DNA of 64,000 bases from Actinomycetota bacterium (GTDB lineage Bacteria > Actinomycetota > UBA4738 > HRBIN12): positions 16,259 to 80,258 of the forward strand of contig VAYU01000025.1 of assembly GCA_005884925.1 (NCBI GenBank), in the 5' to 3' direction. The position numbers and the translations under genes were made by a program. Below are positions 18,251 through 36,050 of this stretch, in pieces. Position 1 is the stretch's first letter. Every line of letters begins with the position of its first letter. The notes beneath the pieces are model-generated. The model saw only the letters and a program-made list of their open reading frames with translations. It made no database searches and was not told the origin of the DNA.

Positions 18251-20374
18251 TCAGACCGGCACGTGTTCGTCCTCGACGGCGAGCTCGTTTTCGCTATAGG
18301 TCGTTGCGGCGCTCTCTCCAGTGATCGGCACGCGACCGGTCACCTCCGTGCCTTCGCCGGCTGAGCTCTCGACATCGAACGTGCCCCCGATCGCTGCGAG
18401 GCGGTCGGCGACGCCCTCGAGGCCTCCGCCGGACCCCACCGTGGTGGGATCGAAGCCGCGCCCGTCATCGGTCACAGCGAACGTGAGGAGCGTCGGTGCG
18501 CGCGTGATCGTGATCGCAGCCCCGGAGGCTCCCGCGTACTTCGCGACGTTCTGGAGCGCCTCGAGGCAGGAGAAGTACACGGCGGCCTCGATGTCCTGCG
18601 GCAACCGACCGACGCCATCCGCGTCGACACGAACCGGGAACGACGCCTTCCGCGCCTGCGCATCCAGCGCGGACCCGAGGCCCTTGTCGGCGAGCAGCGG
18701 CGGGTAGATCCCGCGCGCAAGGTCCCGGAGATCGTCCAGGGCGGTCTGCGTCTCCGCTTCGATCTGCGCGAGCATCTCCTCCGTCTTGGCGGGGTCGCGC
18801 GCCACGGACTGCCGGGCGAGGCGTGCCTTGACGGCGAGCGCGACCAGCTGCTGCTGCGCGCCGTCGTGGATGTTGCGTTCAAGCTTGCGACGCTCGTGGT
18901 CCTGCGCCGCGACGAGCCGGCGACGTGATCCGCGGAGCTCCTCGACCAAAGCGACGTTGCGGAGCACGAGTCCCGCCTGTGACGCGAGATCGGCCACCAA
19001 CCGCTCCTTGTCCGGCGTCATGGGGTCGCTCGCCGGCATCTCGACGGATAACGCGCCGAGCAACTCACCCCGGTCGCGGACCGCGCCGACGTACACGCCA
19101 GGGATCGACGGCACCGCGTCGCCGTCGACCGCCAGGTTCGGTGGAATCGCCGCGTCCGGAGGCCAGGATGCGCTCGGCCGGAGCTCTCGACCGACGCGCA
19201 GCCACACCCGCGCCACCTTCGCTCCGGCGCCCTCACCGAGGATCTGCGCCATGCGCGGCACCACGTCCTCGGTCGCGTACGCGCCACCGACCCGGGAGGA
19301 GAACTCCGTGAGGACCTCGTAGGGGTTCGCGCGTTTGCCGTAGACGACGCGGTCGGCGAAGCGCCGGGCGCGCGCGCGGACCGGCTGGAAGGCCAGCGCA
19401 AGGATCACGGCGGCGATCACGGAAACCGTGGCGTCGTTGCGACCGAGCAGGAAGCCGCCCGCGGCAACGATCGCGGCGTAAACGGCTGCCACGAACACCG
19501 CGAGCACCCCCGCCACCACGGTCTTCCTGACGACGATGTCGAGGTCGTACAGGCGGAACCGCAGGACGGCGATGCCGATCGAGACGGGGAAGGCCAGGAA
19601 GCCTGCCCCGCCGATCACCGCCGACAGGATCGCGTTCCCGGGGATGACGAAGTCGCCGACGATGATCGAGACGAACGCGAAGACGAGCCCGAACACGACC
19701 CATTTGATCTGCTGGCGCTCGATCCCGGCGGCGCGTCGGAACCGCCTGATGAGCGAGCCGACGGCAACGAGGAAGGTTATGGGGAACAGGACCGCGATCA
19801 CGATGTCGAGATTGGGCACATGGCTCGTCGCCTCGACGAAGAAGGGGTTGGCGATGCCCACGTCCTGGTTCGACCCGCTCAGCGTCCGCTGGCCCACGAT
19901 GAACGAGACCCCGATCACGAAGAGGAACGCGAGGATGAACCCCAGCAACGGACGCCATCGGGGCGACGGCAGACGGCCGTCGGGAAAGACGAGCGGCAGG
20001 ATGAAGAGGACCGGCAGGATCCCCAGCAGCCACCCGAAGTTGTTCATGAGCCCGAAGAACACGGCAAGCGGTCCCGTTTGTCCCCGTACAACGAGCCATG
20101 TGAGGAGCTCGCCGCTGAGGAAGCTGCTCGCCGTCATCAATGACGCGTAGAGGAGCATCAGCCCGATCACGTTCCGCCGGTCACGGCTGACGATCAGGGC
20201 GCCGACGATGCCGAACATCGTGAAGGCGACGATGTACGGGACCTGTGCCGCGACCGACTCGTGGTTCGCGACGACGACGATCGTGCCGATCACCGCGAAG
20301 CTGAAGAAGACGGCCAGGCCGATCCACGGCCACCGAGCCGGCCGGGTATCGATCCGATCAGCCGATGACGACAC
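18251..20374 (-). CDS. Multi-TM sensor histidine kinase (HisKA_3/HATPase), paralogue of the 23-35 kb array
   Basis: LVFPDGRLPSPRWRPLLG, RLYDLDIVVRKTVVAGVLAVFVAAVY, RRKLERNIHDGAQQQLVALAVKARL, DDGRGFDPTTVGSGGGLEGVADRL; GTG start overlapping the cyclase-RR ORF by 17 bp. Confidence 0.93.
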   Translation of the reverse strand: MSSSADRIDTRPARWPWIGLAVFFSFAVIGTIVVVANHESVAAQVPYIVAFTMFGIVGALIVSRDRRNVIGLMLLYASLMTASSFLSGELLTWLVVRGQTGPLAVFFGLMNNFGWLLGILPVLFILPLVFPDGRLPSPRWRPLLGFILAFLFVIGVSFIVGQRTLSGSNQDVGIANPFFVEATSHVPNLDIVIAVLFPITFLVAVGSLIRRFRRAAGIERQQIKWVVFGLVFAFVSIIVGDFVIPGNAILSAVIGGAGFLAFPVSIGIAVLRFRLYDLDIVVRKTVVAGVLAVFVAAVYAAIVAAGGFLLGRNDATVSVIAAVILALAFQPVRARARRFADRVVYGKRANPYEVLTEFSSRVGGAYATEDVVPRMAQILGEGAGAKVARVWLRVGRELRPSASWPPDAAIPPNLAVDGDAVPSIPGVYVGAVRDRGELLGALSVEMPASDPMTPDKERLVADLASQAGLVLRNVALVEELRGSRRRLVAAQDHERRKLERNIHDGAQQQLVALAVKARLARQSVARDPAKTEEMLAQIEAETQTALDDLRDLARGIYPPLLADKGLGSALDAQARKASFPVRVDADGVGRLPQDIEAAVYFSCLEALQNVAKYAGASGAAITITRAPTLLTFAVTDDGRGFDPTTVGSGGGLEGVADRLAAIGGTFDVESSAGEGTEVTGRVPITGESAATTYSENELAVEDEHVPV

Positions 20375-21635
20375 GGAACACCTCGACGGGCTCCTCGCGG
20401 CCCTTCACGATGCGGGGGCCGATCGGGGTGGCCGCGACGTCGGGAGCGGCCGCGACGGTCGAGGCGGCGGCGACGATCTCCCCGGCCTCGGCCTCGGACT
20501 GCAGCCGCTGCGCGACGTTCACGGCGTCGCCCACGACGGTGTACTCGAGCCGGCCGCCGCCGCCCACGGTGCCGGCGATCACCGATCCGGTGTTGACGCC
20601 GATCCCGAGCCCGAGGGTCTCCACGTCCGTCCCCCAGCCCACCGCGTTCAGCTCCCCTTGGCGCTGCTGCATGCCGAGCGCGCAGCGGAGCGCGCGCTCG
20701 GCGTGATCATCGACCGGATCGGGCGCGCCGAAGATGGCCATCACGGCGTCGCCCTGGAACTTGTCGATCGTCCCACCGTGCAAGAGCACCACCTCGGCCA
20801 TGGCCTCGAGGTGGCGCCCGACGATCGTGGCGACGTCGCGGGCGGAGAGCCGCTCGGCGAGCGTCGAGAACCCACGGATGTCGCTGAACAGGACCGAGAC
20901 CACGAGCTCCTGCGGCTCGATGGCCGTCTCCGGGTGCGCGGCCAGCCGGTCGGCGAGCTGCTGCGGCACGAACGACGCGAGCGTCGTTCGTGCCGCAGCC
21001 TGCTCGACCACGGCCGCATGGAGCCGTTTGAACTCGCCGAGGAGGCCGGCACCGGCGCCGTCGCCCGCCATCCGCCCGAACAGCTCGGTGACGCGTCGGT
21101 CGACCGCTTCTTGCGTGGTGCCGAGCTCGCGAGCCATGTCGGCGTATCCGAGGCCCTTGCTCATCATGTCCAGGACGGCGCGGTCCTCTTCGTCCGCGTG
21201 TTTGCTCCCGGTCAGTCGCTCGGCGATCACGGGATCCACGGCGCTTCCGCCGGCGTGCACCTCGTGGATCGCGCGGACCAACTCGTCGCCCTGGGCGATG
21301 CGGTCCTTGAGCAGGTACGCGAGGCCGCTGTGCCCGCCGCCGAGGAGCGCGATCGCGTACTCCTCGTCGTCGTGGGCGGAGAGCACGACCACGCCCGTGT
21401 CGGGGTGGTCGTGCCGGATCGCATGCGCGCAGTCGATCCCCTCGAGCTGGAACGACGGGGGCATCTTGATGTCCGTGACGACGACATCAGGGACGTGTTC
21501 GGCTGCCGCCGCCATCAGCGTGGGTGCGTCCTGCGCCACCCCCACGACCTCGATGTCCTCGTAGGAATCGAGCAGCGCGCGGACGCCCTCGCGGACGAGC
21601 ACGTTGTCCTCGCCGAGCACCACCCGGATCGTCAT
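20358..21635 (-). CDS. Response regulator: REC domain, HTH-like segment, class III adenylate/guanylate cyclase
   Basis: MTIRVVLGEDNVLVREGVRALL...VVVTDIKMPP...GLAYLLKD (REC); AVLDMMSKGLGYADMARELGTTQEAVDRRVTELFGRM (LuxR-like HTH remnant); LVVSVLFSDIRGFSTLAERLSARD...GTIDKFQGDAVMAIFGAP...GGRLEYTVVGDAVNVAQRLQ (cyclase). Confidence 0.93.
   Translation of the reverse strand: MTIRVVLGEDNVLVREGVRALLDSYEDIEVVGVAQDAPTLMAAAAEHVPDVVVTDIKMPPSFQLEGIDCAHAIRHDHPDTGVVVLSAHDDEEYAIALLGGGHSGLAYLLKDRIAQGDELVRAIHEVHAGGSAVDPVIAERLTGSKHADEEDRAVLDMMSKGLGYADMARELGTTQEAVDRRVTELFGRMAGDGAGAGLLGEFKRLHAAVVEQAAARTTLASFVPQQLADRLAAHPETAIEPQELVVSVLFSDIRGFSTLAERLSARDVATIVGRHLEAMAEVVLLHGGTIDKFQGDAVMAIFGAPDPVDDHAERALRCALGMQQRQGELNAVGWGTDVETLGLGIGVNTGSVIAGTVGGGGRLEYTVVGDAVNVAQRLQSEAEAGEIVAAASTVAAAPDVAATPIGPRIVKGREEPVEVFRVVIG
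20960..20999. repeat. 19-bp perfect inverted repeat, 2-nt spacer, inside CDS
   Basis: GCTGCGGCACGAACGACGC ga GCGTCGTTCGTGCCGCAGC. Confidence 0.97.
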
Positions 21636-21667
21636 GCCGCCGCCAACCCCCCGTGTACGATGCGCGC

Positions 21668-22336
21668 GTGTTGCGCGTCGTCTTCGCGGAGGATAACTAC
21701 CTGGTCCGGGAGGGGACGGTCGCGCTCCTCACCGACGCCGGCGACGTCGACATCGTCGGGACCGCCGCATCCTTCGACGAGCTCCTCGCGGCCGTCGAAG
21801 AGCACGCGCCGGACGCCGTCCTGACCGACATCCGGATGCCGCCGTCGGGGACCGACGAAGGCATCCGCGCCGCCAAGCAGATCCGCGCCACGCACGCCGA
21901 CATCGGCGTCGTCGTCCTGTCGCAGTTCGCCGACGAGGAGTACGCGTACGACCTGCTGAAGGACGGCGCCGCGGGTCTCGGGTACCTCTTGAAGGAGCGG
22001 GTCGCCGACGTGCACGAGGTGACCCGCGCGCTCAACGAGGTCGCCAAAGGTGGCTCGGTCCTCGATCCCAAGGTCGTCGAGGCGTTGGTCGCCGCGAAGG
22101 ACCGGATGGCCCATTCGCCGCTCGGGGAGCTCACCGAGCGCGAGCGGGAGGTCCTGTCGCACATGGCCCAGGGCCAGAACAACGCGGCGATCGCGAAGGA
22201 GCTCTTCCTGACCGAACGAGCCGTGGAGAAGCACATCAACTCGATGTTCCACAAGCTCGGCCTCACGGAGGAGATCGACGTGCACCGCCGCGTGATGGCG
22301 GTGCTCGCGTTCCTTCGCGAGACCGAGCATGCCTAA
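21668..22336 (+). CDS. LuxR/NarL-family response regulator
   Basis: LRVVFAEDNYLVREGTVALLTDAGDVDIVG...VLTDIRMPPSGTDEGI...LGYLLKERV; HTH LTEREREVLSHMAQGQNNAAIAKELFLTERAVEKHINSMFHKLGL; GTG start. Confidence 0.95.
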   Translation: MLRVVFAEDNYLVREGTVALLTDAGDVDIVGTAASFDELLAAVEEHAPDAVLTDIRMPPSGTDEGIRAAKQIRATHADIGVVVLSQFADEEYAYDLLKDGAAGLGYLLKERVADVHEVTRALNEVAKGGSVLDPKVVEALVAAKDRMAHSPLGELTEREREVLSHMAQGQNNAAIAKELFLTERAVEKHINSMFHKLGLTEEIDVHRRVMAVLAFLRETEHA

Positions 22337-22400: not shown

Positions 22401-22808
22401 TCACTGTGCGCGCCTCGTATCCACGATGAACACGCTGCACGGCGAGTGTCGGAGCACCAGGTTGGGGACGCTGTCCCGGACGCGCCACCACGAACCGTGC
22501 GTCCCCCGGTTCCCGACGACGATCGTGTCCGCGCTGAGCTCCTGAGCGACCGCCACGATCCGCTCGGCCGCCTCGCCGTGCTCGACGCGCGTGCTCGTTG
22601 GCACACCGGGGAACCGTTGGGCGACGTGCGCCAGGTATCGGCCGGGATCTGCCGCCTTGCCGGGGTCCACGACCGACCGAAGATCGCCGTCCGATCGTAC
22701 GAGCAGGACCACCAGGTCCGACTCGCGGTCCCGCGCGAGCCGGGCCGCATGATCGACGGCCAGGTCCGCCGCCGCCGAAGAATCCGTTCCCACCAAGATC
22801 GTCGTCAT
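22401..22808 (-). CDS. Universal stress protein
   Basis: MTTILVGTDSSAAADLAVDHAARLA...ADTIVVGNRGTHGSWWRVRDSVPNLVLRHSPCSVFIVDT. Confidence 0.9.
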   Translation of the reverse strand: MTTILVGTDSSAAADLAVDHAARLARDRESDLVVLLVRSDGDLRSVVDPGKAADPGRYLAHVAQRFPGVPTSTRVEHGEAAERIVAVAQELSADTIVVGNRGTHGSWWRVRDSVPNLVLRHSPCSVFIVDTRRAQ

Positions 22809-23049: not shown

Positions 23050-25116
23050 TTGAACAAGCGCACAACGGCGTGGGCGATCTTCGTCATCGATCTGGTCAGC
23101 CTGCTGGTGGCCGGGTGGTTGGCATGGCTTACGCGTGATGCGACCAGCTCGTCGGGCTGGAGCGGCAACGGGTTCGTCTCCGGGCTGCTGTTCGCGCTCG
23201 CGCTGCTCCCGTTCCCGATCGTCGGACTCATGATCGCGGTCCGTCGGCCCGAGAACGCGATCGGCTGGCTCCTGCTGGCTATCGGGTTCAGCTGGTACTT
23301 CGGCGAGGTCCTGACCGGCTACGGGGTCTACGGGCTCGGGGTGTCGCACCTGCCGGCGGCCGACTGGGTCCTGTCGTTCACGGGATGGCAGTGGATCCCG
23401 CCGATCGGGCTGATGGGCAGCTTCGCGCTGCTGCTGTTCCCCGACGGGCACCTCCCGTCAGCCCGTTGGCGGTGGTTCGCGTGGGTGACCGCCGTCGTCC
23501 TCGTGGTGTCATCGGCCGGCATCCTGTTCGGTCAGGGCAACCTCGCCGACGCAGGATTCCCGAACGTCGCGAATCGGTTCGGCGTTCCCGGCCTCTCGTT
23601 CCTCGCGGTCGCCCTCGTGCTGTTCCCGTTCTGCATCCTGGCGAGCGCTGCCAGCCTCGTGGTTCGATTCCGCCGGTCCCGCGGAGCCGAACGCGAGCAG
23701 CTGAAACTGCTCGCGTTCGCTGCGGCAGCCGTCGCGGTCGCGTACCTCATCGTCATGCTGCTGTCGCTCGTCCCTTCGTTCACTGGATCGAGCGGTGAGA
23801 CCCCTGGATGGCTCGCGGTGGCGCAGACACTCGTCGTGTTCTCGTTCACGCTGATCCCTCTCGCGATCGGCGTGGCGATCCTTCGCCACGGCCTCTACGA
23901 GATCGACCTCATCATCCGCAAGACGGTCCGCTACGCCGTTCTGGTGGCACTGCTCCTCGCGATCGTCGTCGGCACCTTGCTCCTTGCCGGAGCGCTCGCG
24001 GCCGGCCGCGGAGGCCTCCGAGAGGACCCGGCGGCGCTGGTGATCGTCGGGGTCGCCATCGGCCTGGCGTTCTGGCCGCTCCGACGGTTGGCCGCGACGG
24101 TTGCCGACCGTGTGGTTTTCGGGAACCGGGCGAACCCTTACGAGGTCCTGAGCGAGTTCTCGGACCGGGTCGGCGATGCCTACGCCGCCGAGGACGTCCT
24201 GCCCCGGATGGCCCAGGTGCTCGGGATGGGCATCGGCGCCGACGCGGCGGCCGTCTGGCTCCTATCCGGGGGCGAGCTCCATCCCGCCGCGGTCTGGCCC
24301 GCCGCCACCGACCCACCGACCGGCGATCTCGTGGATGTGGAGCACCGGGGCGAGCGCCTGGGTGCGCTCTCGGTCGCGATGCCTCCCGCCGAGCCGCTGA
24401 GCGGCGCCCGCGAGAACCTGATGCACGATCTCGCCTCCCAGGCTGGCCTCGTGCTCCGCAACGTCCTGCTGATCGAGGAGCTCCGGTCGTCGCGACGGCG
24501 TCTCGTTGCCGCGCAGAACGACGAGCGCCGGAAGATCGAACGGAACCTGCACGATGGCGCGCAGCAACAGCTCGTCGCGCTCGCCGTGCAGCTCAAGCTG
24601 GCGCGGTCGATGGTCGAGCGCGACCCCGCTAAGGCCGGAGCATTGCTCGATACGCTCCAGGGTGCCGCCACGGACGCGTTGGAGGACCTGCGGGACCTGG
24701 CTCGTGGGATCTATCCGCCCCTGCTCGCCGACAAGGGGGTGACGACGGCCCTCGAAGCGCAGGCGCGCAAGGCGATCGTGCCGGTCACCGTCGAGGCCGA
24801 CGGGGTCGGCCGGTTCCCCGCGGACGTCGAATCGGCCGTCTACTTCTCCTGTTTGGAGGCGCTGCAGAACATCGGCAAGTACGCGGACGCGAGCGCGGCG
24901 ACGATCCGGCTGTCGAACAGCTCGGGCGAGCTGCGCTTCGAGATCCGCGACGACGGGCGGGGGTTCGACCCCTCCGCCACGAGCTACGGGACGGGCCTGC
25001 AGGGGATCGCGGATCGGCTCGCCGCCCTCGGCGGCGAGCTGGTCGTGACCTCGGCGCCCGGCGACGGCACCGCCGTCGCCGGGCGCCTCCCGCTGGATCG
25101 AGGGGCGATCGGATGA
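23050..25116 (+). CDS. Multi-TM sensor histidine kinase, array member 1
   Basis: LFPDGHLPSARWRWFAW, LYEIDLIIRKTVRYAVLVALLLAIVVG, DERRKIERNLHDGAQQQLVALAVQLKLA, DDGRGFDPSATSYGTGLQGIADRL; likely TTG start (ORF open from 22897). Confidence 0.9.
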   Translation: MNKRTTAWAIFVIDLVSLLVAGWLAWLTRDATSSSGWSGNGFVSGLLFALALLPFPIVGLMIAVRRPENAIGWLLLAIGFSWYFGEVLTGYGVYGLGVSHLPAADWVLSFTGWQWIPPIGLMGSFALLLFPDGHLPSARWRWFAWVTAVVLVVSSAGILFGQGNLADAGFPNVANRFGVPGLSFLAVALVLFPFCILASAASLVVRFRRSRGAEREQLKLLAFAAAAVAVAYLIVMLLSLVPSFTGSSGETPGWLAVAQTLVVFSFTLIPLAIGVAILRHGLYEIDLIIRKTVRYAVLVALLLAIVVGTLLLAGALAAGRGGLREDPAALVIVGVAIGLAFWPLRRLAATVADRVVFGNRANPYEVLSEFSDRVGDAYAAEDVLPRMAQVLGMGIGADAAAVWLLSGGELHPAAVWPAATDPPTGDLVDVEHRGERLGALSVAMPPAEPLSGARENLMHDLASQAGLVLRNVLLIEELRSSRRRLVAAQNDERRKIERNLHDGAQQQLVALAVQLKLARSMVERDPAKAGALLDTLQGAATDALEDLRDLARGIYPPLLADKGVTTALEAQARKAIVPVTVEADGVGRFPADVESAVYFSCLEALQNIGKYADASAATIRLSNSSGELRFEIRDDGRGFDPSATSYGTGLQGIADRLAALGGELVVTSAPGDGTAVAGRLPLDRGAIG
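25053..25087. repeat. 16-bp perfect inverted repeat, 3-nt spacer, inside CDS
   Basis: GGCGCCCGGCGACGGC acc GCCGTCGCCGGGCGCC. Confidence 0.97.
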
Positions 25117-27143
25117 AATCACGACTGGCCTGGTGGCTGTGGGCGCTGGGGATCTTGGGCGTCGCCATCGCCGCGGCATTCGGGATCGCCGACGGCAAGG
25201 GGGCGGAGTGGAATGGCTTCACCCAAGTCGTCGCGTTCTTCGCGGTGGGGACGATCGGGCTCGTGGTCGCACGGCACCAGCCGAAGAACCCGCTCGGCTG
25301 GATCTACCTCGCGGTGTGGACGGGGGCGGCTGTTGTCTTCGGAAGCTTGAGCGGATTCGCTCGGTGGGCAGCCATCAAGGACCCGTCCATGCCGGGTTCG
25401 ACCCTGGCCGCATGGGTCGGGAACTGGGTCTGGGTCCCGATCTTCGTGGCCCTGGTCACCTTCCCGTTCCTCCTCTTCCCCGACGGGCACCTCCCATCTC
25501 CGCGATGGCGCACCGTCGCCTGGGGAACCGTCGTGCTTACGGTGCTGTGGTCGATCAGTTTCGCGTTGGAGGGACACGACTACACCGACGCGCTGAACCG
25601 TCCAAGTCCCAACCCCTACGCCATCCCCGGCCTCGTTCCGTTCTTCGATGGAGCGAGACTGGTCCTCGGCCTTCTGTTCATCGCTGTGATGGGAGTGTGC
25701 GTGGCGTCGCTCGTGGTGCGTTTCCGGCGTGGCGATCGCGAAGAACGCGAACAGATCAAGTGGTTGATGTTTGCAGGAGCCGCAACGGTGATCTGGTTCG
25801 GCCTGCCCCTCAACCATGGGAGCGGCGGGTGGCCCGACTTCGTCCAGGGCTTCGTCCTAGCCCTTATCCCGCTCTCGATCGGGGTCGCGATCCTGAAGTA
25901 CCGGCTCTTCGACATCGACGTCGTCATCCGCAAGACGGTGGTGTTCGGCGTCCTCGCGGTGTTCATCACGGCCGTCTACGTCGCGATCGTCGTCGGGGTC
26001 GGCACCATCGTCGGCTCACGAGGGAGCCCCTTGCTCTCCGGGATCGCCGCAGCCGCGGTGGCGCTCGCGTTCCAGCCGGTCCGTCGCTGGGGCCAACGCG
26101 TCGCCAACCGCCTGGTCTACGGGAAGCGCGCAACCCCGTACGAGGTCCTATCGGAGTTCTCGAGCCGACTGGGCGGCGCATACGACCCCGAAGACGTCCT
26201 GCCTCGCATGGCTCGCATCCTCGCCGAAGGGACGGGCGCCAGACGCGCAGACGTCTGGCTGCATGTCGATCGGAAGCTTCGCGTCGCGGCGAGCTGGCCG
26301 ATCACGGACGAACCTGCGAACGAGCTCGCAGCGGAGCCGTTCCCTCCGGGCCTCGTTCCCGTGCGGCATCGCGATGAGCTCCTCGGAGCGCTCGGCGTCC
26401 AGACGTCGACGGGAGAGTCGCTGACTCCGACGGAGTCGACGCTCGTGGACGACCTCGCGGCGCAGGCCGGCCTCGTTCTTCGGAACGTTGCACTGACGGG
26501 GCAGTTGCGCGCGCGTCTGGAAGAGCTTCGTGCGTCACGGCAACGTTTGGTCGGGGCGCAGGACGAGGAGCGGCGGAGGATCGAGCGCAACATCCACGAT
26601 GGCGCGCAGCAGCAGCTCGTCGCGCTCGCGGTGAAGCAGCGGCTGGCCGCGTCCCTGGTCGGCCGCGACGATGAGCGCGCTCGGACGATGCTCGAGGAGC
26701 TCCAGATCGAGACGAACGCGGCGCTCGACGACCTCCGGGACCTCGCGCGCGGGATCTTCCCCCCACTGCTTGCCGACCGGGGACTCGCGGCAGCGCTCGA
26801 GGCGCAGGCCCGGAAGGCCGCGTTGCCCGTCACGGTGGACGCCGGTGGGATCGGCAGGTTCCCGCAGGACGTCGAGACGACGGTGTACTTCTGCACGCTC
26901 GAGGCACTGAACAACGTCGCGAAGTACGCCGATGCGACCCGCGCGACGGTTCGGCTCGCGAACGGCAATGGGGCACTCCGCTTCGAGGTCACCGACGACG
27001 GCCGGGGCTTCGACCCGGCCGTCGTCGGCTACGGCACCGGCCTGCAGGGGATGGCGGACCGGCTCGCCGCCGTCGGCGGCGAGCTGACGGTACGGTCGGC
27101 CCCCGGCGCCGGCACGACGATCGCTGGGACGGTGCGCGCATGA
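25113..27143 (+). CDS. Multi-TM sensor histidine kinase, array member 2
   Basis: LFPDGHLPSPRWRTVAW, RLFDIDVVIRKTVVFGVLAVFITAVYVAIVVGVG, ERRRIERNIHDGAQQQLVALAVKQRL, DDGRGFDPAVVGYGTGLQGMADRL; ATGA overlap at 25113-25116. Confidence 0.95.
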   Translation: MKSRLAWWLWALGILGVAIAAAFGIADGKGAEWNGFTQVVAFFAVGTIGLVVARHQPKNPLGWIYLAVWTGAAVVFGSLSGFARWAAIKDPSMPGSTLAAWVGNWVWVPIFVALVTFPFLLFPDGHLPSPRWRTVAWGTVVLTVLWSISFALEGHDYTDALNRPSPNPYAIPGLVPFFDGARLVLGLLFIAVMGVCVASLVVRFRRGDREEREQIKWLMFAGAATVIWFGLPLNHGSGGWPDFVQGFVLALIPLSIGVAILKYRLFDIDVVIRKTVVFGVLAVFITAVYVAIVVGVGTIVGSRGSPLLSGIAAAAVALAFQPVRRWGQRVANRLVYGKRATPYEVLSEFSSRLGGAYDPEDVLPRMARILAEGTGARRADVWLHVDRKLRVAASWPITDEPANELAAEPFPPGLVPVRHRDELLGALGVQTSTGESLTPTESTLVDDLAAQAGLVLRNVALTGQLRARLEELRASRQRLVGAQDEERRRIERNIHDGAQQQLVALAVKQRLAASLVGRDDERARTMLEELQIETNAALDDLRDLARGIFPPLLADRGLAAALEAQARKAALPVTVDAGGIGRFPQDVETTVYFCTLEALNNVAKYADATRATVRLANGNGALRFEVTDDGRGFDPAVVGYGTGLQGMADRLAAVGGELTVRSAPGAGTTIAGTVRA

Positions 27144-29239
27144 GCGTCGTCGAGGCGCGAAGGGATCGCTGGGTCCCGCGGCTCGCCCGACTCGCGCTCG
27201 GGGTCGTGGTCGTGGTCGGGACGTGCGGCCTCACGCTCGCAGCGATGCGACGCGAAACGGGAGTCATCCTCGGCGCGCTCGCCGTATCCGCGATCCTCAT
27301 CGTCTTCTCGCTCTTGGGGATCCTCATCGCGGGGCGCAAGCACAACCCCGTGGGCTTGATCTTCTCTGCGCTCGCGGTCGCGGCCGCCATCCAGCTCACG
27401 GCCGGCGACTACATCCTGCGTGCGAATGTGACCGCGCCCGGTTCGCTGCCGCTCGTGGTGTATGCGGAATGGGTCGATCGGTGGATCGGGGCAGCGGCGA
27501 TCACGCTCCTGCCCCTGCTCTTCCTGCTGTTCCCGACCGGTCGCATCCCGTCGGCTCGTTGGCTGTGGGTGTTCCGCGCGTGGGCTGCCTCCGCCTGCCT
27601 CTGGGTCGTGGGATTCATGCTGACGCCTGGCCCACTCGACGTGGGCAACTCCGACCACGCGATGAACCCCTTCGGGGTGAGCTTCGGGTCGGCCCTCGGG
27701 TTCATCGGCGGCGTGGGTCTGCTCGTGTCGACGATCGCATCGATCGCATCGCTGTTCGTCCGATGGCGACACGCAGCCGGGGAGGAACGCCAGCAGCTGC
27801 GGCTTCTCGTGTTCGTTGCCGGTGTTGGATTCGTCTTCTTCTGGCTGTCTGGCGTCCCGGGACCCATCTCCAGCGTCGGATGGGCGGGCTTCCAGGTGTC
27901 CTTGCTTATCGGGATCCCGGCAGCGATCGCGATCGCGATCCTGAAGTACCGCCTCTACGACGTCGACCTCGTGATCCGGAAGACGGTGGTGTTCGGCGTC
28001 CTCGCCGCGTTCATCACCGCGGTCTACGTCGCGGTCGTGGTGGGTCTCGGGTCGATCTTCACCGACACGCTGGTCCTGCGGATCGCGGCGACGGCGCTGG
28101 TCGCGGTGGCGTTCCAGCCGGTGCGCGACCGCGCGAACCGGCTCGCGAACCGGCTGGTGTTCGGCGATCGGGCGACGCCGTACGAGGTGCTCGCTCGCTT
28201 CGGCGAGCGCGTCGGCGAGACCTATGCGAGCGATGACGTCCTGCCACGGATCGCGCGTGTGATCGCCGAGGGAACGGCCGCGGCTCGCTCGGACGTCTGG
28301 CTCCGACTGGGCGACCGGTTCACGCTCGCAGCTTCGTGGCCGGTCAGCGAACCGCAAGGGTCGTTCGCGATCGAGGGCGACGAGCTCCCGCCGATCGATG
28401 CCGACCGGGTCGCTCCGGTCGGCCATCAGGGCGAGCTCCTCGGCGCGATCGCCGTGACCAAGCCCGCGAGCGAGCCGCTCACCCCTGGGGACGCCGAGCT
28501 CCTCGACCGCCTCGCCGAGCAGGCGGGGCTGGTGCTCGCGAACGCGCGGCTCACGGCCGATCTGGAGGCTCGGCTGATGCAGATCGCGCAGCAGGCCGCC
28601 GATCTCCGTTCCTCCCGGCAACGGATCGTGGCCGCTCAGGACGAGGAAAGGAGGCGGCTGGAACGCAACATCCACGACGGAGCGCAGCAGCATCTGGTCG
28701 CGCTCGCGGTCAAGCTTCGGCTCGCGAAGACCGCGCTCCAGACGGATCCGGAGCACGGACGACGCATGCTTGGAGAGATCAGCGACGAGGTGGACGCGGC
28801 TCTGGACACCCTCCGTTCGCTCGCCCTCGGGATCTATCCGCCGCTGCTGGAGGAACAGGGGATCGCAGCCGCGCTGGCTGCGCAGTACTTGCGCAGCAGT
28901 CTGCCCGTGCGGATGGAGAGCGACGGGATCGGCAGGTACCCGATCGAGCTGGAGGCGGCCGTCTACTTCTGTACGCTCGAGGCGCTCCAGAACGCGGCGA
29001 AGTACGCACACGCCTCCGCGATCACGATCTCGTTCCGAGAACAGGGCGGGGCGCTCGAGTTCACCGTCACCGATGACGGCGTTGGGTTCGATCCGGGATC
29101 GAACGGGACCGGCACGGGGATCCAAGGGATCCGAGATCGGATCTCCGTGTTCGGCGGCGATGCGGAGATCGAGTCCTCACCCGGACTGGGAACGACGGTC
29201 CGTGGCCGCGTGCCGTTGCTGGAGGAGGTGTCGCGATGA
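27140..29239 (+). CDS. Multi-TM sensor histidine kinase, array member 3
   Basis: LFPTGRIPSARWLWVFR, RLYDVDLVIRKTVVFGVLAAFITAVY, ERRRLERNIHDGAQQHLVALAVKLRLA, DDGVGFDPGSNGTGTGIQGIRDRI; ATGA overlap at 27140-27143. Confidence 0.95.
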   Translation: MSVVEARRDRWVPRLARLALGVVVVVGTCGLTLAAMRRETGVILGALAVSAILIVFSLLGILIAGRKHNPVGLIFSALAVAAAIQLTAGDYILRANVTAPGSLPLVVYAEWVDRWIGAAAITLLPLLFLLFPTGRIPSARWLWVFRAWAASACLWVVGFMLTPGPLDVGNSDHAMNPFGVSFGSALGFIGGVGLLVSTIASIASLFVRWRHAAGEERQQLRLLVFVAGVGFVFFWLSGVPGPISSVGWAGFQVSLLIGIPAAIAIAILKYRLYDVDLVIRKTVVFGVLAAFITAVYVAVVVGLGSIFTDTLVLRIAATALVAVAFQPVRDRANRLANRLVFGDRATPYEVLARFGERVGETYASDDVLPRIARVIAEGTAAARSDVWLRLGDRFTLAASWPVSEPQGSFAIEGDELPPIDADRVAPVGHQGELLGAIAVTKPASEPLTPGDAELLDRLAEQAGLVLANARLTADLEARLMQIAQQAADLRSSRQRIVAAQDEERRRLERNIHDGAQQHLVALAVKLRLAKTALQTDPEHGRRMLGEISDEVDAALDTLRSLALGIYPPLLEEQGIAAALAAQYLRSSLPVRMESDGIGRYPIELEAAVYFCTLEALQNAAKYAHASAITISFREQGGALEFTVTDDGVGFDPGSNGTGTGIQGIRDRISVFGGDAEIESSPGLGTTVRGRVPLLEEVSR

Positions 29240-31254
29240 GGCGCGTGGGGGCGATCCTCTTCCTCGTGGCGCCGCCGTTGCTGCTACTGATCGCGTGCGT
29301 CCTGAACGCATGGGCGGGAAGGGGTTGGATCAGCCCGCTCGAGTGGGCACCGCTCGCGTTCGCGTCCGCCGCCGTTGGCTCCCTCCTGTGGATCCGGCGT
29401 GCTGGTGGGGCGATGGCGGGGTTGTTCATCTACATGGGGCTGGGGCTGCCGATCGGCATGATCTTCGAGGCGTACGCACGAGGCGCGGTCGACCACGGTC
29501 TTCCCGGGGCGCCGTGGGCAGCGTGGCTCTTCCAGGCTTCCCTTGGCTTGTCGCTCGGCTTCTACCTGATCATGCAGCTCTTCCCGACGGGCGCTCCCTT
29601 GTCACGTCGGTGGCGGACCCTCGTCTGGCTCACGATCGCGACCGCGACGGTCGTTCTCCTGACGCCAGCATTCGGGGTGACGTCCGAGTTCACGGCGAAC
29701 TTCCCGGGCGTTGTGCATCCGCTCCAGATCCTCCCGGCCAAAGCAGCGAACGTCCTCGACACGATCGGCGGCGTCGGCACGTTGATCTTGTTCATCGCAT
29801 CGGCCGCGGAGATCGTCCTGCGATACCGACGCTCCGCCGGGGACGAGCGAGCCCAGATGAAATGGTTCGCAACGGCGTCAGCGGTGGCGGCTGTCGGTTT
29901 CATCGTCGGCTTCGCAACGCTCCCAGACAACCCAGCGATCGCCTTCGCGCTGCTCACACCGCTGATCCCGATCGCCGCCGGCATCGCCATCCTGAAGTAC
30001 CACCTCTACGACATCGACGTCGTGATCTCGAAAGCGGTGGTCTTCGCACTGCTCGGCGTGTTCATCGCGGTCGTCTACGTCGCGATCGTGGTGGGGATCG
30101 GGACGCTCGCCGGGAACACGACGAGCCCCGCGCTCTCGATCGCCGCGACCGTGCTGGTGGCGGTGCTGTTCCAGACCGTTCGCGTGCGCGCGCGCCGGCT
30201 CGCGAACCGATTGGTCTACGGTGAGCGAGCCACGCCCTACGAGGTGATCGCGGGCTTCTCGGAGCGCGTCGCCGACGCCGTTTCGACGGATCGGGTCTTG
30301 CCGCAGATGGCCGAGGCGGCCGGACGCGGGGTCGGAGCGGTCGAAGCGACTGTCCGGGTACGTTTGCCCGGCGGGCTCGACCGGACCGAACGGTGGTCGG
30401 GACCGGGCGTCACCCCCGAGCGCGTCGCCGAGCCGTGGACGGTCACGGTCGGCTATCAGGGGGAACCCGTCGGGGACCTGATCGTGACGAAGCCCACGAA
30501 CGATCCCCTCACCCCCGCGGAGCAGAACCTCCTCCGCGATCTGGCTGCGCAGGCGGGGTTGGCACTGCACAACGTCCGGTTGACCGAAGAGCTCGGGATC
30601 CGTCTGCGGGAACTGGACGAGCAGGCCGCGGCGCTGCGCGTTTCGCGCGAACGGCTCGTAACCGCTCGGGACGCGCAGCGCCGCGGCCTCCAGCGGGACA
30701 TCCACGAGGGGCCCGAGCGGCATCTCCTTGACATCCGGCAACGACTCCACCGGGTGGTCGACCCCGTCGAACTGGACGGGCTCATCGGGCACACGAACGA
30801 AACCCTCGACGGCCTCCGCGATCTGGCGCGCGGGATCTTCCCCCCGCTGCTCGCGGAGCAGGGCGTGATCGCCGCGCTCCGGGCGCACATCCGCAAGGTA
30901 GGCGCGAACGTAACCGTCGAAGCGGCGATCGGCTTCGCCGATCGCCGCTTCGACGCCGACACCGAGGCGGGCGTGTACTTCTGCTGCCTCCAGGCCATCC
31001 AGAACGTGATCCGCCATGCGAACAACGCGACGTGCGTGGTCGCGCTGTCCAGCGACGCCGACGCGATCGTGTTCGAGATCCGTGACGACGGGCCAGGGTT
31101 CGATGTCGCCGCGACCCCCCGCGGGATGGGCCTGCAGATCGTGCAGGACCGGGTCGACGCGCTCGACGGATCTCTCGAGGTCACGAGTGACCCGGGGCGC
31201 GGGACGCGCGTCGCCGTCCGCCTGCCGATCCGAGCACTGGAGCCGGTCCGATGA
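29236..31254 (+). CDS. Multi-TM sensor histidine kinase, array member 4 (divergent DHp segment)
   Basis: LFPTGAPLSRRWRTLVW, HLYDIDVVISKAVVFALLGVFIAVVY, QRRGLQRDIHEGPERHLLDIRQRLHRVV, DDGPGFDVAATPRGMGLQIVQDRV; ATGA overlap at 29236-29239. Confidence 0.93.
   Translation: MRRVGAILFLVAPPLLLLIACVLNAWAGRGWISPLEWAPLAFASAAVGSLLWIRRAGGAMAGLFIYMGLGLPIGMIFEAYARGAVDHGLPGAPWAAWLFQASLGLSLGFYLIMQLFPTGAPLSRRWRTLVWLTIATATVVLLTPAFGVTSEFTANFPGVVHPLQILPAKAANVLDTIGGVGTLILFIASAAEIVLRYRRSAGDERAQMKWFATASAVAAVGFIVGFATLPDNPAIAFALLTPLIPIAAGIAILKYHLYDIDVVISKAVVFALLGVFIAVVYVAIVVGIGTLAGNTTSPALSIAATVLVAVLFQTVRVRARRLANRLVYGERATPYEVIAGFSERVADAVSTDRVLPQMAEAAGRGVGAVEATVRVRLPGGLDRTERWSGPGVTPERVAEPWTVTVGYQGEPVGDLIVTKPTNDPLTPAEQNLLRDLAAQAGLALHNVRLTEELGIRLRELDEQAAALRVSRERLVTARDAQRRGLQRDIHEGPERHLLDIRQRLHRVVDPVELDGLIGHTNETLDGLRDLARGIFPPLLAEQGVIAALRAHIRKVGANVTVEAAIGFADRRFDADTEAGVYFCCLQAIQNVIRHANNATCVVALSSDADAIVFEIRDDGPGFDVAATPRGMGLQIVQDRVDALDGSLEVTSDPGRGTRVAVRLPIRALEPVR
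30623..30689. repeat. 19-bp perfect inverted repeat, 29-nt spacer, inside CDS
   Basis: AGGCCGCGGCGCTGCGCGT at 30623-30641 and ACGCGCAGCGCCGCGGCCT at 30671-30689. Confidence 0.97.
30916..30954. repeat. 18-bp perfect inverted repeat, 3-nt spacer, inside CDS
   Basis: GTCGAAGCGGCGATCGGC ttc GCCGATCGCCGCTTCGAC. Confidence 0.97.
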
Positions 31255-33338
31255 ACCACCCGGATCGCGAACGTGCGATCGCGCGGAGGGTCGCGATCGG
31301 TCTGGTCGCGTTCTACGTCGCGCTGTGGCTCGTGCGCCTGATCCTCGGCTTCGCAACGGGGAGCCTGACGGACCAGCCGGGCTGGGTCCTCGACCTGGTC
31401 TACGGCGCGGGGACGATCGTCTTCTCCACGCTGATACTCCTCGTCGGGTGGGCGATCGTGACGAGACAGTCGAGGAACACGATCGGCTGGCTCCTGATGC
31501 TCATCCCGATCCTCGGGATCTTCGGCTTCGTCGTCGGCGATTACGCAACCCAAGCGCTCGTCACGCACCCGGGCTCGCTCCCGTTCGGTCGGGTGGCGGC
31601 CTGGTTCGACCGTTGGCTCATCGTCGCCATGATGGCGATCTTCATCCCGTTGTTCCTCTCGTTCCCGGACGGGAAGCTCCCGTCGCGACGGTGGCGGCCC
31701 GTCCTGTGGTTCACGATCGCTGCCACCTCCGTCACCGTGATCGGGTTCGCCGTGACGCCGGGACGCTTGACCGGCGCGTTCTCCGACCTCACGAGCATCA
31801 CGGTGACCAATCCGCTCGGCATCGAGGCTCTCGCAGGACCGATCGATGCCATCACGCAGCTCGCAGGGATCGCCATCTTGATCAGCGCGTTCCTCGCGGG
31901 TGCGGCGATCATCGTTCGGTTCCGGGGTGCTTCGGGTGAGGTCCGCCAGCAGATCAAGTGGCTCGCGTTCGTCGGGGTTGCCTTCATGGTCGAGGTCCTG
32001 GTCGGCGCGGTCCTGACGGGGATCCTGGGCGATCGCTCGAGCGCATCCGACACGGTGGGCAACGTCCTGTTCACGGTCTGGTTCCTCACGCTCCTCGGCG
32101 GGATCCCGATCGCGTGCGGGGTCGCGATCCTCAAGTACCACCTCTACGACCTCGACGTCGTGATCCGCAAGGCCGTGGTCTTCGGATTGCTGGTCGTCTT
32201 CATCACGGCTGTCTACGCGGCGATCGTCGGCATCCTCACGACCCAGGTGAGCTCGACGATCGGATCGTTCGCGGCCGCGGCGACCTTGGCGGTGCTCTTC
32301 GCGCCGGCGAGGGACCGCGCACGCAAGCTCGCCGACCGCGTGGTCTACGGGAAGCGAGCGACCCCCTACGAGGTCTTGGCGGACTTCTCGGGCCGGGTCG
32401 GTGAGGCGTATGCGGCCGAGGACGTCTTGGATCGGATGGCCGGCGTACTGGCCAAGGGAGCTGGCGCCGAGGTCGCTACGGTCTGGTTGAAGGTCGCGAA
32501 CGACGTGAGACCCGCAGCGACGTTCCCCGAGGGGGCGCCTCCGGCCGATGGAACGACCGTCCCGGTCGTGCATCACGGCGAGGAGCTGGGGGCGCTCTCG
32601 GTCAGGATGCCCGCATCGGATCCGATCGATCCTACGAAACGCAAGCTCGTCGAGGACCTGGCGGCACAGGCGGGTCTGGTCCTCAGGAACGTCCGGCTGA
32701 TCGAGGAGCTCCGCGCCTCGCGGCAACGACTCGTGGCCGCGCAGGACGAAGAGCGACGCAAGATCGAACGGAACCTCCACGATGGCGCTCAGCAGCAACT
32801 GGTCGCCCTGGCGGTCCAACTGAAGCTCGCCGAGAAGCTCGCGGGCACGCATCCCGACAAGGAGCGAGAACTCCTCGCCCGGCTCGGCTCCCAGGCGAAC
32901 GCCGCCCTCGAGGACCTCCGCGGCCTCGCGCGCGGGATCTACCCGCCTCTGCTGGCGGACAAAGGGCTCGCCGCGGCGCTCGAGAGCCAGGCGCGGAAGG
33001 CCGCGGTGCCGACGACGGTCGAAGCCGACGGCATCGGGCGGTACCCGCAAGACGTCGAGTCGACGATCTACTTCTGCACGCTCGAGGCGCTCAACAACGT
33101 CGCGAAGTACGCGGAGGCGAGCCGCGCGATCGTGCGGTTGTCGCAGCGAGACAGACACGTCGAGTTCGCGGTGGATGACGACGGCCGAGGCTTCGATGCC
33201 GACGCGACGGGCTACGGGACAGGGCTGCAGGGCATGGCCGACCGGCTCGATGCGATCGGGGGCGAGCTGCTGGTCCAGAGCCGACCCGGGGCTGGCTCGA
33301 CGGTGTCCGGACGCGTTCCGGTCGGAGGCACGGGATGA
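31251..33338 (+). CDS. Multi-TM sensor histidine kinase, array member 5
   Basis: SFPDGKLPSRRWRPVLW, HLYDLDVVIRKAVVFGLLVVFITAVY, DEERRKIERNLHDGAQQQLVALAVQLKLAEKL, DDGRGFDADATGYGTGLQGMADRL; ATGA overlap at 31251-31254. Confidence 0.95.
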   Translation: MNHPDRERAIARRVAIGLVAFYVALWLVRLILGFATGSLTDQPGWVLDLVYGAGTIVFSTLILLVGWAIVTRQSRNTIGWLLMLIPILGIFGFVVGDYATQALVTHPGSLPFGRVAAWFDRWLIVAMMAIFIPLFLSFPDGKLPSRRWRPVLWFTIAATSVTVIGFAVTPGRLTGAFSDLTSITVTNPLGIEALAGPIDAITQLAGIAILISAFLAGAAIIVRFRGASGEVRQQIKWLAFVGVAFMVEVLVGAVLTGILGDRSSASDTVGNVLFTVWFLTLLGGIPIACGVAILKYHLYDLDVVIRKAVVFGLLVVFITAVYAAIVGILTTQVSSTIGSFAAAATLAVLFAPARDRARKLADRVVYGKRATPYEVLADFSGRVGEAYAAEDVLDRMAGVLAKGAGAEVATVWLKVANDVRPAATFPEGAPPADGTTVPVVHHGEELGALSVRMPASDPIDPTKRKLVEDLAAQAGLVLRNVRLIEELRASRQRLVAAQDEERRKIERNLHDGAQQQLVALAVQLKLAEKLAGTHPDKERELLARLGSQANAALEDLRGLARGIYPPLLADKGLAAALESQARKAAVPTTVEADGIGRYPQDVESTIYFCTLEALNNVAKYAEASRAIVRLSQRDRHVEFAVDDDGRGFDADATGYGTGLQGMADRLDAIGGELLVQSRPGAGSTVSGRVPVGGTG

Positions 33339-35575
33339 CCCCGCGCGCGGCGACCCTGATCTCTCGAACCCTGATCGGACTGGGGCTCGTGATGATCGCG
33401 CTCGCGGTCTTCGTGAGCAGAACGACGTTCTCGCGAGCCGATCCCCACGAGATCGTCGTGATCCCGCAGGCCCTCGAGCCGCGGGTGCTCGCCGCTGCGG
33501 ACGCCCTGCGTCGCGACCCCGGGGTGGCGACCGACCCGGCCCTCGCCGACGCGCCAGAAGTGATGGTTCACGAGCAAGACCGCGTCGCCCACGGCGAACG
33601 GCTGACTACGACGGCCAACTCTCCGGGCGCGAGCGTCGTCTTGGTGGTCAGCCTGCTGTGGATGGGGACGGGGAGCGTGATCGTGTCCCGGCAACCTCGC
33701 AACCTGGCTGGGTGGGTGTTCCTCGCGCTGGGCTTCCTGATCGTCCTCGAAGGACTTAGCCAGATCATGGTGTTCGCCGCGTTCAGGGCGGATGCGGCCG
33801 TCCCGCTCGCGTCGGTGTGGGCCATCGCGGGTGAATACGCGGTCTATCCCATCGTCCTCCTGCCCCTGCTGTGGCTGCTGTTCCCCGACGGCCAACCGCC
33901 ATCGCCGCGGTGGCGGTGGGCCGTACGGGCGTACCTCGTCGCGGTGTGGATCGCGTTGGCCGCGTACGTGGTGACACCGGGGCCGCTGAACAACTTCGTG
34001 GACTTCGGCGTCCTGTACATGAACCCACTGGGCGGGTCAGCCGTATCAGGGATCGCCCCTGCGATCACCGGCATCGGCGGCATGGTCGCGCTGATCCTGA
34101 CGATCGCGACGATCTTCGGCGTCCGAGGTCGATTCAAGCGGGCGACGGGGGACGAACGTCAGCAGCTCCGGTGGCTCGTCTTCGTGACGACACTGGCGCT
34201 GGTGCTGTTCGTCGCCATCTTCGCGGGCGGGCTCATCGTCGAACAGATCTTCCATCACCAGAACCCACAGATCGGTCGTGTCGATGTGTTCGACCTGCTG
34301 TTCAGTCTGTTGGCCGCTCTGGTCGTGATCGGGATCCCCGGCGCCTATCTCGTCGCGATCTACCGCTATCACCTCTGGGACCTCGACGTCGTGATCAAGA
34401 AGGCGCTGGTCTTCGCGCTCGTCGCCGGAGGGCTGACGGTCGTCTCGCTCGGGGTCGTCCTTCTGCTTCCGGCGCTGGTCGTCGGGACTGGGTTGACCGG
34501 GACGGAGCGCACGGTCTTCGTCGTCGGCGTCGCCATCGGCACGCTGTTCGGTCCCCTCCGGCGACTCGCGCGGCGACTCGCCGACCGCATCGTCTATCAC
34601 ACGCGAGCAACGCCGTATGAGGTGCTCACGGAGTTCTCCGGCCGCGTCGGGAGCACCTACGCGACCGACGACGTGCTCCCGCGTATGGCTCAGGTCCTCG
34701 CGCGAGGCGCCGGAGCGCCATCCGCGCGCGTGCTGCTTTCGGTTCACGGGGAACGACGAGTGGCCGCTTCGTTCGGCGAGACCGCGGATGGCTCCGATTT
34801 CGAGGTCACGGTCACGCATCAAGGCCAGGAGCTGGGGGCGCTCGCGGTGACGATGCCAGCGAACGACCCGATCGACCTAGCGCGCGAGAAGCTCGTCCAC
34901 GACCTCGCGGCGCAGGCCGGCCCAGTGCTCCGCAACGTTGCGCTGATCGAAGACCTTCGGGCGTCCCGACAGCGCCTCGTCGTGGCGCAAGACGACGAAC
35001 GTCGCAAGATCGAGCGGAACCTGCACGACGGCGCGCAGCAGCAGCTGGTCGCGCTCGCGGTCCAGCTGCGACTGCTGGAGCAGACCGCGGGCAAGGACCC
35101 GGAGCGGGACCGCGAGGTCGCGGCGAGGCTCGGCTCCCAGGCGAACGCCGCCCTCGAAGATCTACGCGACCTCGCGCGCGGGATCTACCCGCCGCTCCTG
35201 GCGGACAAGGGGCTCGCCGCGGCCCTCGAGGCCCAGTCGCGCAAGGCGGCCGTCCCCACGACGGTCGAGGCCGACGACGTCGGCCGGTACCCCCAGGGGA
35301 TCGAGTCGGCGGTCTACTTCTGCGTGCTCGAGGCGCTGAACAACGTCGCGAAATACGCAGGGGCCACGCGCGCGACCATCACGCTGGCGCAGGCCGATGG
35401 TCACCTCTCGTTCGAGGTGGACGACGACGGAGCGGGGTTCCAGGTGGATCGAGCACGCGGCGGGACCGGCATCCAGGGGATGGCCGACCGGCTCGATGCG
35501 ATCGGGGGCTCGCTCACGATCCGGAGCGTTCCTGGGGAGGGCTCGACCGTCGGCGGACGGGTGCCTGTCACGTAA
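33335..35575 (+). CDS. Multi-TM sensor histidine kinase, array member 6 (extra extracytoplasmic loop)
   Basis: LFPDGQPPSPRWRWAVR, HLWDLDVVIKKALVFALVAGGLTVVSLG, DDERRKIERNLHDGAQQQLVALAVQLRLLEQ, DDGAGFQVDRARGGTGIQGMADRL; ATGA overlap at 33335-33338. Confidence 0.95.
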   Translation: MTPRAATLISRTLIGLGLVMIALAVFVSRTTFSRADPHEIVVIPQALEPRVLAAADALRRDPGVATDPALADAPEVMVHEQDRVAHGERLTTTANSPGASVVLVVSLLWMGTGSVIVSRQPRNLAGWVFLALGFLIVLEGLSQIMVFAAFRADAAVPLASVWAIAGEYAVYPIVLLPLLWLLFPDGQPPSPRWRWAVRAYLVAVWIALAAYVVTPGPLNNFVDFGVLYMNPLGGSAVSGIAPAITGIGGMVALILTIATIFGVRGRFKRATGDERQQLRWLVFVTTLALVLFVAIFAGGLIVEQIFHHQNPQIGRVDVFDLLFSLLAALVVIGIPGAYLVAIYRYHLWDLDVVIKKALVFALVAGGLTVVSLGVVLLLPALVVGTGLTGTERTVFVVGVAIGTLFGPLRRLARRLADRIVYHTRATPYEVLTEFSGRVGSTYATDDVLPRMAQVLARGAGAPSARVLLSVHGERRVAASFGETADGSDFEVTVTHQGQELGALAVTMPANDPIDLAREKLVHDLAAQAGPVLRNVALIEDLRASRQRLVVAQDDERRKIERNLHDGAQQQLVALAVQLRLLEQTAGKDPERDREVAARLGSQANAALEDLRDLARGIYPPLLADKGLAAALEAQSRKAAVPTTVEADDVGRYPQGIESAVYFCVLEALNNVAKYAGATRATITLAQADGHLSFEVDDDGAGFQVDRARGGTGIQGMADRLDAIGGSLTIRSVPGEGSTVGGRVPVT

Positions 35576-35587
35576 GAGACCGGCCGA

Positions 35588-35959
35588 TCAGGACCCGGAG
35601 GCCTCGGTCCAGGCCGCCTCCAGGCGGTCCGGGCCGAAGACCGCCTTGGGGATGTACGAGGCCGCGCCGCATTCCGCGGCACGCGGCGCATACTCCTCCT
35701 CCTCGTATGTCGAGAGGAGCAACACGACCGGGGGACCATCGGCGCCCAGGATGCGACGGGTCGCCTCGAGCCCGTCGATCCCGGGGAGGTTGACGTCCAT
35801 CAGCACGAGGTCGGGTGCGAGGTCGGCCGCCATAGTGACGCCCTCCTCGCCGGTCGCGGCCTCGCCGACGACGTCGAAACCGTCGGTGACGTCGACCACC
35901 ATGCGCGCGGCGAGGCGGAACGGCTCCTGGTCATCGACGATCAGCACGCGAACGGGCAT
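35588..35959 (-). CDS. Single-domain response regulator (REC only)
   Basis: MPVRVLIVDDQEPFRLAARMVVDVTDGFDVVGEAATGEEG...DLVLMDVNLPGIDGLEATRRIL...ASYIPKAVFGPDRLEAAW; ends with no HTH or output domain. Confidence 0.88.
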   Translation of the reverse strand: MPVRVLIVDDQEPFRLAARMVVDVTDGFDVVGEAATGEEGVTMAADLAPDLVLMDVNLPGIDGLEATRRILGADGPPVVLLLSTYEEEEYAPRAAECGAASYIPKAVFGPDRLEAAWTEASGS

Positions 35960-36050
35960 CTGGATCTCCGACTCGAGCGTCGCAGAGGACGTCGCGTCTG
36001 ACAGTGGTGCCAGCACCACTCCCCGTGTCCCCTTCGGTACGTCGAGGAGC

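Follow-up and report, generated by a model that had tools for sequence, protein, structure and literature searches.

The window analysed here, a 64,000-nucleotide stretch of contig VAYU01000025.1 from an Actinomycetota bacterium, carries six homologous sensor histidine kinase genes lying head to tail on the + strand between positions 23050 and 35575, as an earlier note made from the sequence had described. They are listed below; the spacer counts the residues that separate the GAF-like domain from the H box around the phospho-accepting His.

23050..25116, + strand: kinase 1 (P0001), 688 aa, TTG start, transmembrane (TM) sensor, GAF-like region, HisKA_3 (HDGAQQ) and HATPase, spacer 30
25113..27143, + strand: kinase 2 (P0002), 676 aa, HDGAQQ, spacer 37
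27140..29239, + strand: kinase 3 (P0003), 699 aa, His-bearing partner in an asymmetric pair, HDGAQQH, spacer 44
29236..31254, + strand: kinase 4 (P0004), 672 aa, degenerate H box IHEGPER, N/G1/G2 boxes intact, spacer 44
31251..33338, + strand: kinase 5 (P0005), 695 aa, HDGAQQ, spacer 30
33335..35575, + strand: kinase 6 (P0006), 746 aa, HDGAQQ, spacer 30

In a profile search of the genome, all six kinases matched one shared profile from end to end, with E-values of 0 to 1e-277, which excludes chance as an explanation of their homology. In each, a multi-TM domain at the N-terminus is followed by a short GAF-like stretch and a transmitter made up of HisKA_3 and HATPase. Pairwise identities run from 25 to 37% across the TM portion and from 39 to 76% across the transmitter, and the motifs FP[DT]G..[PL]S.RW and D[ILV]D[ILV]VI.K are seen in their alignment. 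The TTG start of kinase 1 at 23050 is backed by an orthologue from the same genus, and kinase 6 has an additional stretch of about 70 aa close to its N-terminus. HisKA_3 (DesK/NarX-type) kinases were defined by a PF07730 dimerisation and histidine phosphotransfer (DHp) domain, with its His and a Gln five residues further on (H+5), together with HATPase_c. Kinases 1, 2, 3, 5 and 6 and a seventh paralogue in the window belong to this class (PF07730 E-values of 1e-11 to 1e-15, PF02518, HDGAQQ), and the sequence HDGAQQ[QH]LVALAV follows from the His in six of the seven window kinases. The domain search proposed in the earlier note thus found PF07730 in five of the six array proteins and none in gene 4, so that the TM domain, motifs, GAF-like region and HATPase of the proposed common architecture hold throughout, whereas the IHDGAQQ-type box does not. 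All five array junctions are ATGA stop/start overlaps (25113, 27140, 29236, 31251 and 33335), again as previously described; such overlaps are common in operons and say little alone, and fixed ratios, read from the coupling by itself, are no evidence for heteromers. No sigma-70 promoter turned up when the array was scanned, a result that is uninformative at 69% guanine plus cytosine. NCBIfam names all fell far under the cut-off.

Kinase 4 is the degenerate member of the set. It has no PF07730 match; its H box (IHEGPER) has lost the usual Asp and Gln, with Arg replacing Gln at H+5, and about nine residues are deleted from the DHp hairpin. The HATPase_c domain is present (51 bits), and a structure model of the cytoplasmic part (predicted local distance difference test score, pLDDT, 81) contains a GAF domain, a 65-residue signalling helix, DHp helices and a catalytic and ATP-binding domain. 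Its ratio of nonsynonymous to synonymous substitution rates (dN/dS) is 0.19, similar to the neighbouring kinases, and kinase 4 is under purifying selection. Genes 3 and 4 combine two features expected of a heterodimeric pair, being adjacent genes coupled by an ATGA overlap of which one, gene 4, encodes a catalytically degenerate box. Genomes G002, G003 and G006 encode orthologues of the kinase-3 and kinase-4 cores, adjacent every time, and the kinase-4 lineage stands beside the same neighbour in several families. Within the genus of the window the H box of this lineage reads HEGPER; in G006 and G003, which represent two other genera, it reads REGPQR (His to Arg), and relatives of the gene 3/4 pair retain the arrangement with the His actually lost.

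In other asymmetric pairs the His is replaced by Glu, Arg, Leu or Gly, and the ATPase boxes are intact in most pairs of the window family and degenerate in G049, G063 and G161. A tree of kinase cores, built with the H-box and helix-2 columns removed, placed the His-degenerate cores of seven genomes from three families (G000, G003, G006, G210, G238, G049 and G063) in one clade (support 88/98), a second His-degenerate set (G019 twice, G020) in a separate clade (99/94), and the kinase-3-type partners of the window family in a clade of their own (99/93). The gapped G019C131 row was left out as an alignment artefact. Loss of the His was seen in 10 of 87 tandem and 0 of 50 solitary kinases (Fisher p 0.014), a comparison that is not leaned on here, since it is biased by the way loci were fetched; an alignment artefact accounts for one of the ten.

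Further evidence concerns the site at which a response regulator docks. Structures of DesK-DesR show the regulator resting on helix alpha1 of one protomer, with minor contacts to alpha2' of the other, and DesK Arg235 forms a salt bridge with Asp103 of the regulator (PMC5231405). DesK aligns without gaps from the phospho-His to Arg235, and its H box, phosphatase Gln and docking residues all map. Complementary loss in the two members is what a heterodimer having a single working docking site would predict, because a homodimer needs both halves of the site on one chain. In the discovery set, the Arg235 equivalent was present in all 105 unpaired kinases and in 12 of 13 His-degenerate members, and was lost in 6 of 13 His-bearing partners. 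Conversely, the equivalent of Leu200, a hydrophobic docking residue of alpha1, was polar, charged or gapped in 10 of the 13 His-degenerate members and retained in every partner; erosion of this residue was confined to the His-degenerate members.

A similar division was found in Actinomycetota examined later, where the Arg is lost in 7 of 8 Nocardioidaceae and all Pseudonocardiaceae His-bearing partners, is retained by every His-less partner, and is present in 86 of 88 unpaired actinobacterial kinases. Six of these loci (L055, L058, L066, L076, L083 and L091) had been fetched earlier for another purpose; the remainder were fetched by homology to a His-less member and, being relatives of the first pairs, are not independent of them. 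The division holds in all but two of these pairs; the Acidimicrobiaceae pair L055 is an exception, with the Arg in both members. A separate observation concerns the Pseudonocardiaceae loci L238 and L241-L254, in which the regulator and asymmetric pair follow a third small gene that has an HDGAALR or HDGPALR DHp region but lacks ATPase boxes.

The signalling-helix spacers bear on which kinases could pair. In array gene order they measure 30, 37, 44, 44, 30 and 30 residues, and in nearly all window-family copies measured they are quantised at 30, 37 or 44, differing by exact heptads. All discovery-set pairs in which both members were measurable have matching spacers (44/44 and 37/37), as does the G002 pair. 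By length, the only compatible combinations in the array are genes 3 and 4, or genes 1, 5 and 6 among themselves. These values fit a pairing of genes 3 and 4 as a parallel coiled coil, though shared ancestry is an alternative cause.

The sensor domains have a different history from the transmitters. When the core and TM phylogenies suggested in the earlier note were compared, the two disagreed for kinases 3 and 4: in the core trees the orthologues from G002, G003 and G006 cluster by position, whereas their TM domains do not, a single clade being rejected for each (approximately unbiased test, p = 4.35e-5 and 0.0019). In G003C65_10901, a kinase-3-type core is joined to a kinase-2-type TM domain (support 100/100). 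The transmitter pair has been conserved while its sensors were exchanged. The cyclase-linked kinases, by contrast, retain their own TM clade (100/99), with a TM domain orthologous across them. A fold search with the TM domain model (pLDDT 86.7) gave no significant match, the best PDB E-value being 0.012, with low TM-scores and generic seven-transmembrane matches.

The array lies within a wider signalling island, whose other members are as follows.

15116..17227, + strand: fusion of a universal stress protein and ABC1 (UbiB-like kinase), recurrent near the island in relatives
18251..20374, - strand: seventh paralogous kinase (P0008), with a 17-bp overlap with the REC-cyclase gene
20358..21635, - strand: response regulator P0007, REC plus degenerate LuxR-type helix-turn-helix (HTH) plus class III nucleotidyl cyclase, Asp at the DesR-D103 equivalent
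21653..22336, + strand: NarL-type response regulator P0009, REC plus GerE, divergent from the cyclase gene, Glu at the DesR-D103 equivalent
22401..22808, - strand: universal stress protein, conserved beside the first array kinase
35588..36019, - strand: lone receiver P0010, transcribed convergently towards the end of the array, Ala at the D103 position, with a different docking face

The earlier count of six paralogues is accordingly right for the array and one short for the window, and the statement that no cognate regulator sits between the kinases, true in itself, leaves aside the three receiver proteins that flank them. P0009 has the REC and GerE HTH domains of a NarL-type regulator, with conserved phospho-Asp and Lys. 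The cyclase domain of P0007 matches PF00211 (4e-23), and its FSDIRGF, IDKFQGD and VVGDAVNVAQR segments align with the adenylate cyclases 6fht, 2w01 and 3r5g; with the catalytic metal Asp pair and the adenine-specifying Lys, it is a predicted class III adenylate cyclase, and production of cyclic AMP (cAMP) by P0007 is suggested by these catalytic residues only. The REC-HTH part of P0007 is 49% identical to that of its divergent neighbour, and P0007 is probably a duplicate of the NarL-type regulator that acquired a cyclase. In nearly all islands examined, the NarL and REC-cyclase receivers have common docking residues (V, G, T/V, L) and an acidic residue at the D103 position; the lone receiver has Ala or Ser there in all but one island, and its face differs. 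Elsewhere in the window, a 1166-aa protein (6444-9944, + strand) begins with a zinc ribbon and contains a second class III cyclase-like region matching that of P0007, and an MFS-type transporter is fused in one frame to thymidylate kinase (38767-40812, - strand; Pfam matches to both).

Comparative analysis of relatives indicates that the kinase set of this island is expandable. The genome falls in a Chloroflexota-like lineage, and its topoisomerase shows about 50-52% identity to Chloroflexota and Dormibacterota genomes. The REC-cyclase occurs in 17 of 27 genomes of the order, adjoining the NarL regulator, the universal stress protein and kinases. The kinase run comprises 1 gene in G004, 4 in G008 and 6 in the window, and G006 has at least 9 kinases on one contig and 3 beside a universal stress protein on another, for a total of about 11 if one gene is split; copy number also varies within the genus, G002 having an extra kinase ahead of its kinase-1 orthologue. 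Genes meeting at these junctions usually overlap by 4 bp. The regulators remain single-copy while kinase number varies, and this, together with the shared docking residues, makes the NarL regulator and the REC-cyclase likely common targets of the kinases. The notion of a combinatorial sensing panel put forward in the earlier note is supported in the form of a panel with shared outputs, by this variation in kinase number against single regulators and by the docking face that all fully canonical kinases have in common. In more distant families and some Actinomycetota, the cyclase-kinase-receiver-NarL set also occurs, there with between one and three kinases. Within the order, arrays ranging from 3 to about 11 kinases are a regular feature rather than a one-off. 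The earlier note had held that its proposal would fall if such arrays proved common and already described; the former is partly so within the order, but no literature report of tandem kinase arrays like this was found in a search whose most direct form was narrow (exact phrases required together), so that absence is not established. An independent kinase array is present at L078 (7498-19516), where a Nocardiaceae metagenome-assembled genome has 3 and 4 tandem HisKA_3 kinases around a NarL-type regulator and no detectable window-family TM domain.

Taken together, the island, the copy-number variation, the degenerate box, the complementary residue loss, the spacer lengths and the sensor shuffling, all read at the sequence level, favour, with somewhat better than even confidence, an expandable sensor array in a conserved island with shared regulators, in which kinases 3 and 4 form one asymmetric heterodimer. 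The steps that we infer are heterodimerisation, phosphotransfer to P0009 and P0007, and cAMP output. In each kinase a multi-TM sensor, subject to shuffling, would be joined to a HisKA_3 transmitter that hardly varies, and the transmitters would feed a common regulator pair with the same docking face, namely P0009 for transcription and P0007 for cAMP. Kinases 3 and 4 would be held together through their 44-residue signalling-helix spacers and share one split docking site. Helix alpha1 of that site would come from kinase 3, along with the phospho-accepting His, and helix alpha2 from kinase 4, which would also supply the capacity to bind ATP. The other four kinases and the cyclase-linked kinase would act as homodimers or possibly, among those with equal spacers (1, 5, 6 and the seventh), as mixed dimers. 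The heteromeric receptor proposed earlier is thereby narrowed to one adjacent pair, genes 3 and 4.

Several observations weigh against this reading. The window pair is only mildly degenerate, since P0004 retains a His and P0003 the Arg235 equivalent, and the strongest evidence consequently comes from relatives. The helix-2 motif of kinase 3 (LRSLALGIYPP) has lost its second Arg. Arg loss amounts to about seven changes on the tree, a strict independent-pairs test gave 3 supported pairs and was underpowered, and two unpaired kinases (L069 and L081) and G344 deviate from the pattern. The His-less partners of Actinomycetota also lack ATPase boxes, which makes trans-phosphorylation by them impossible, so that autophosphorylation there would be in cis. 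An ancient tandem duplication could account for both the matched spacers and the paired clades, and the array is assigned to P0009 and P0007 by proximity and docking residues only.

Ordinary tandem duplication would leave six independent homodimers with diverging sensors, which reach their common regulators through cross-talk; kinase 4 would then be a homodimer that is either in decay or inhibitory. Homodimers are the rule among kinases, the paralogues lie in tandem, the extra G002 kinase shows copy number changing within one genus, and the H box of kinase 4 lacks its usual Asp and Gln. We nevertheless consider this unlikely, as kinase 4 is under purifying selection and its lineage keeps the same neighbour across several families, and as Arg loss is located in that neighbour and not in unpaired kinases, when a homodimer could spare neither docking half. 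Judged equally improbable is that kinase 4 is a negative modulator sequestering kinase 3 or the regulator, in the manner of RetS/GacS, and no obligate co-subunit. RetS/GacS and DivL/CckA, cited in PMC9491836, offer precedents, and the regulator-contact Arg of helix 2 is retained in His-less members; such a role leaves unexplained why the His-bearing partner should lose its Arg with its alpha1 face kept, and fixed adjacency with equal spacers suggests stoichiometric partners. A single mixed receptor array of all six kinases at fixed ratio, despite translational coupling and a docking face that five of the six have in common, is very improbable and was dropped, because spacers differing by whole heptads (30, 37, 44) should block mixed parallel coiled coils except among 1/5/6 and 3/4.

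The preferred reading of genes 3 and 4 extends to a broader and more tentative proposition, held with slightly less than even confidence, that obligate HisKA_3 heterodimers are old and widespread in Chloroflexota and Actinomycetota, each pairing a phospho-His and helix-1 partner with a pseudokinase that gives helix 2, so that a single regulator-docking site is split between two proteins, within arrays that gain, lose and swap sensors around a constant output pair of transcription factor and cyclase. In the textbook view a sensor kinase is a homodimer serving a single cognate regulator, and obligate heterodimers have seldom been reported in nature. The split docking site, with its Arg235/His188 complementarity, is a residue-level prediction from sequence alone, and the pattern recurs in the named strains Nocardioides astragali and Pseudonocardia bannensis, so that the long-standing question of mixing versus separation of paralogous kinases becomes directly testable. 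The combination of array and mixed pair is an unusual arrangement, open to study in culturable bacteria, and the array provides an example from nature in which numerous inputs evolve while the output, transcription plus cAMP, stays fixed and sensors are swapped onto constant transmitters.

Among known systems, DevS/DosT-DevR of Mycobacterium tuberculosis combines GAF domains, kinases with related ATPase domains (weak matches to the window kinases) and a NarL-type regulator. Its two kinases, which are unlinked and soluble, act on a single regulator located close to a universal stress protein, and the system has no tandem array and no cyclase regulator. DesK-DesR, a HisKA_3 kinase with a NarL-type regulator, is the closest solved transmitter to the array kinases, but DesK is a single homodimeric kinase with symmetric docking sites and a different sensor. 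Few natural kinase heterodimers are known, among them FasBC (PMC12675982) and RetS/GacS, DivL/CckA and ChrS/HrrS (PMC9491836). ChrS and HrrS of Corynebacterium are paralogous kinases able to heterodimerise, and a pseudokinase allele modulates its partner (PMC9491836); unlike the array, they belong to two separate two-component systems, and the pseudokinase arose in laboratory evolution. FasB and FasC of group A Streptococcus are adjacent, co-transcribed kinases that form a heterodimer in two-hybrid assays, one being a proposed pseudokinase, and share the regulator FasA (PMC12675982). No array and no cyclase are reported for FasBC, and FasC, the proposed pseudokinase, bears the essential phospho-His and has a dispensable kinase domain, whereas kinase 4 is His-degenerate with intact ATPase boxes. 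In having two adjacent kinases, one of them degenerate, and a shared regulator, FasBC nonetheless resembles genes 3 and 4, for which the heterodimer is predicted from sequence.

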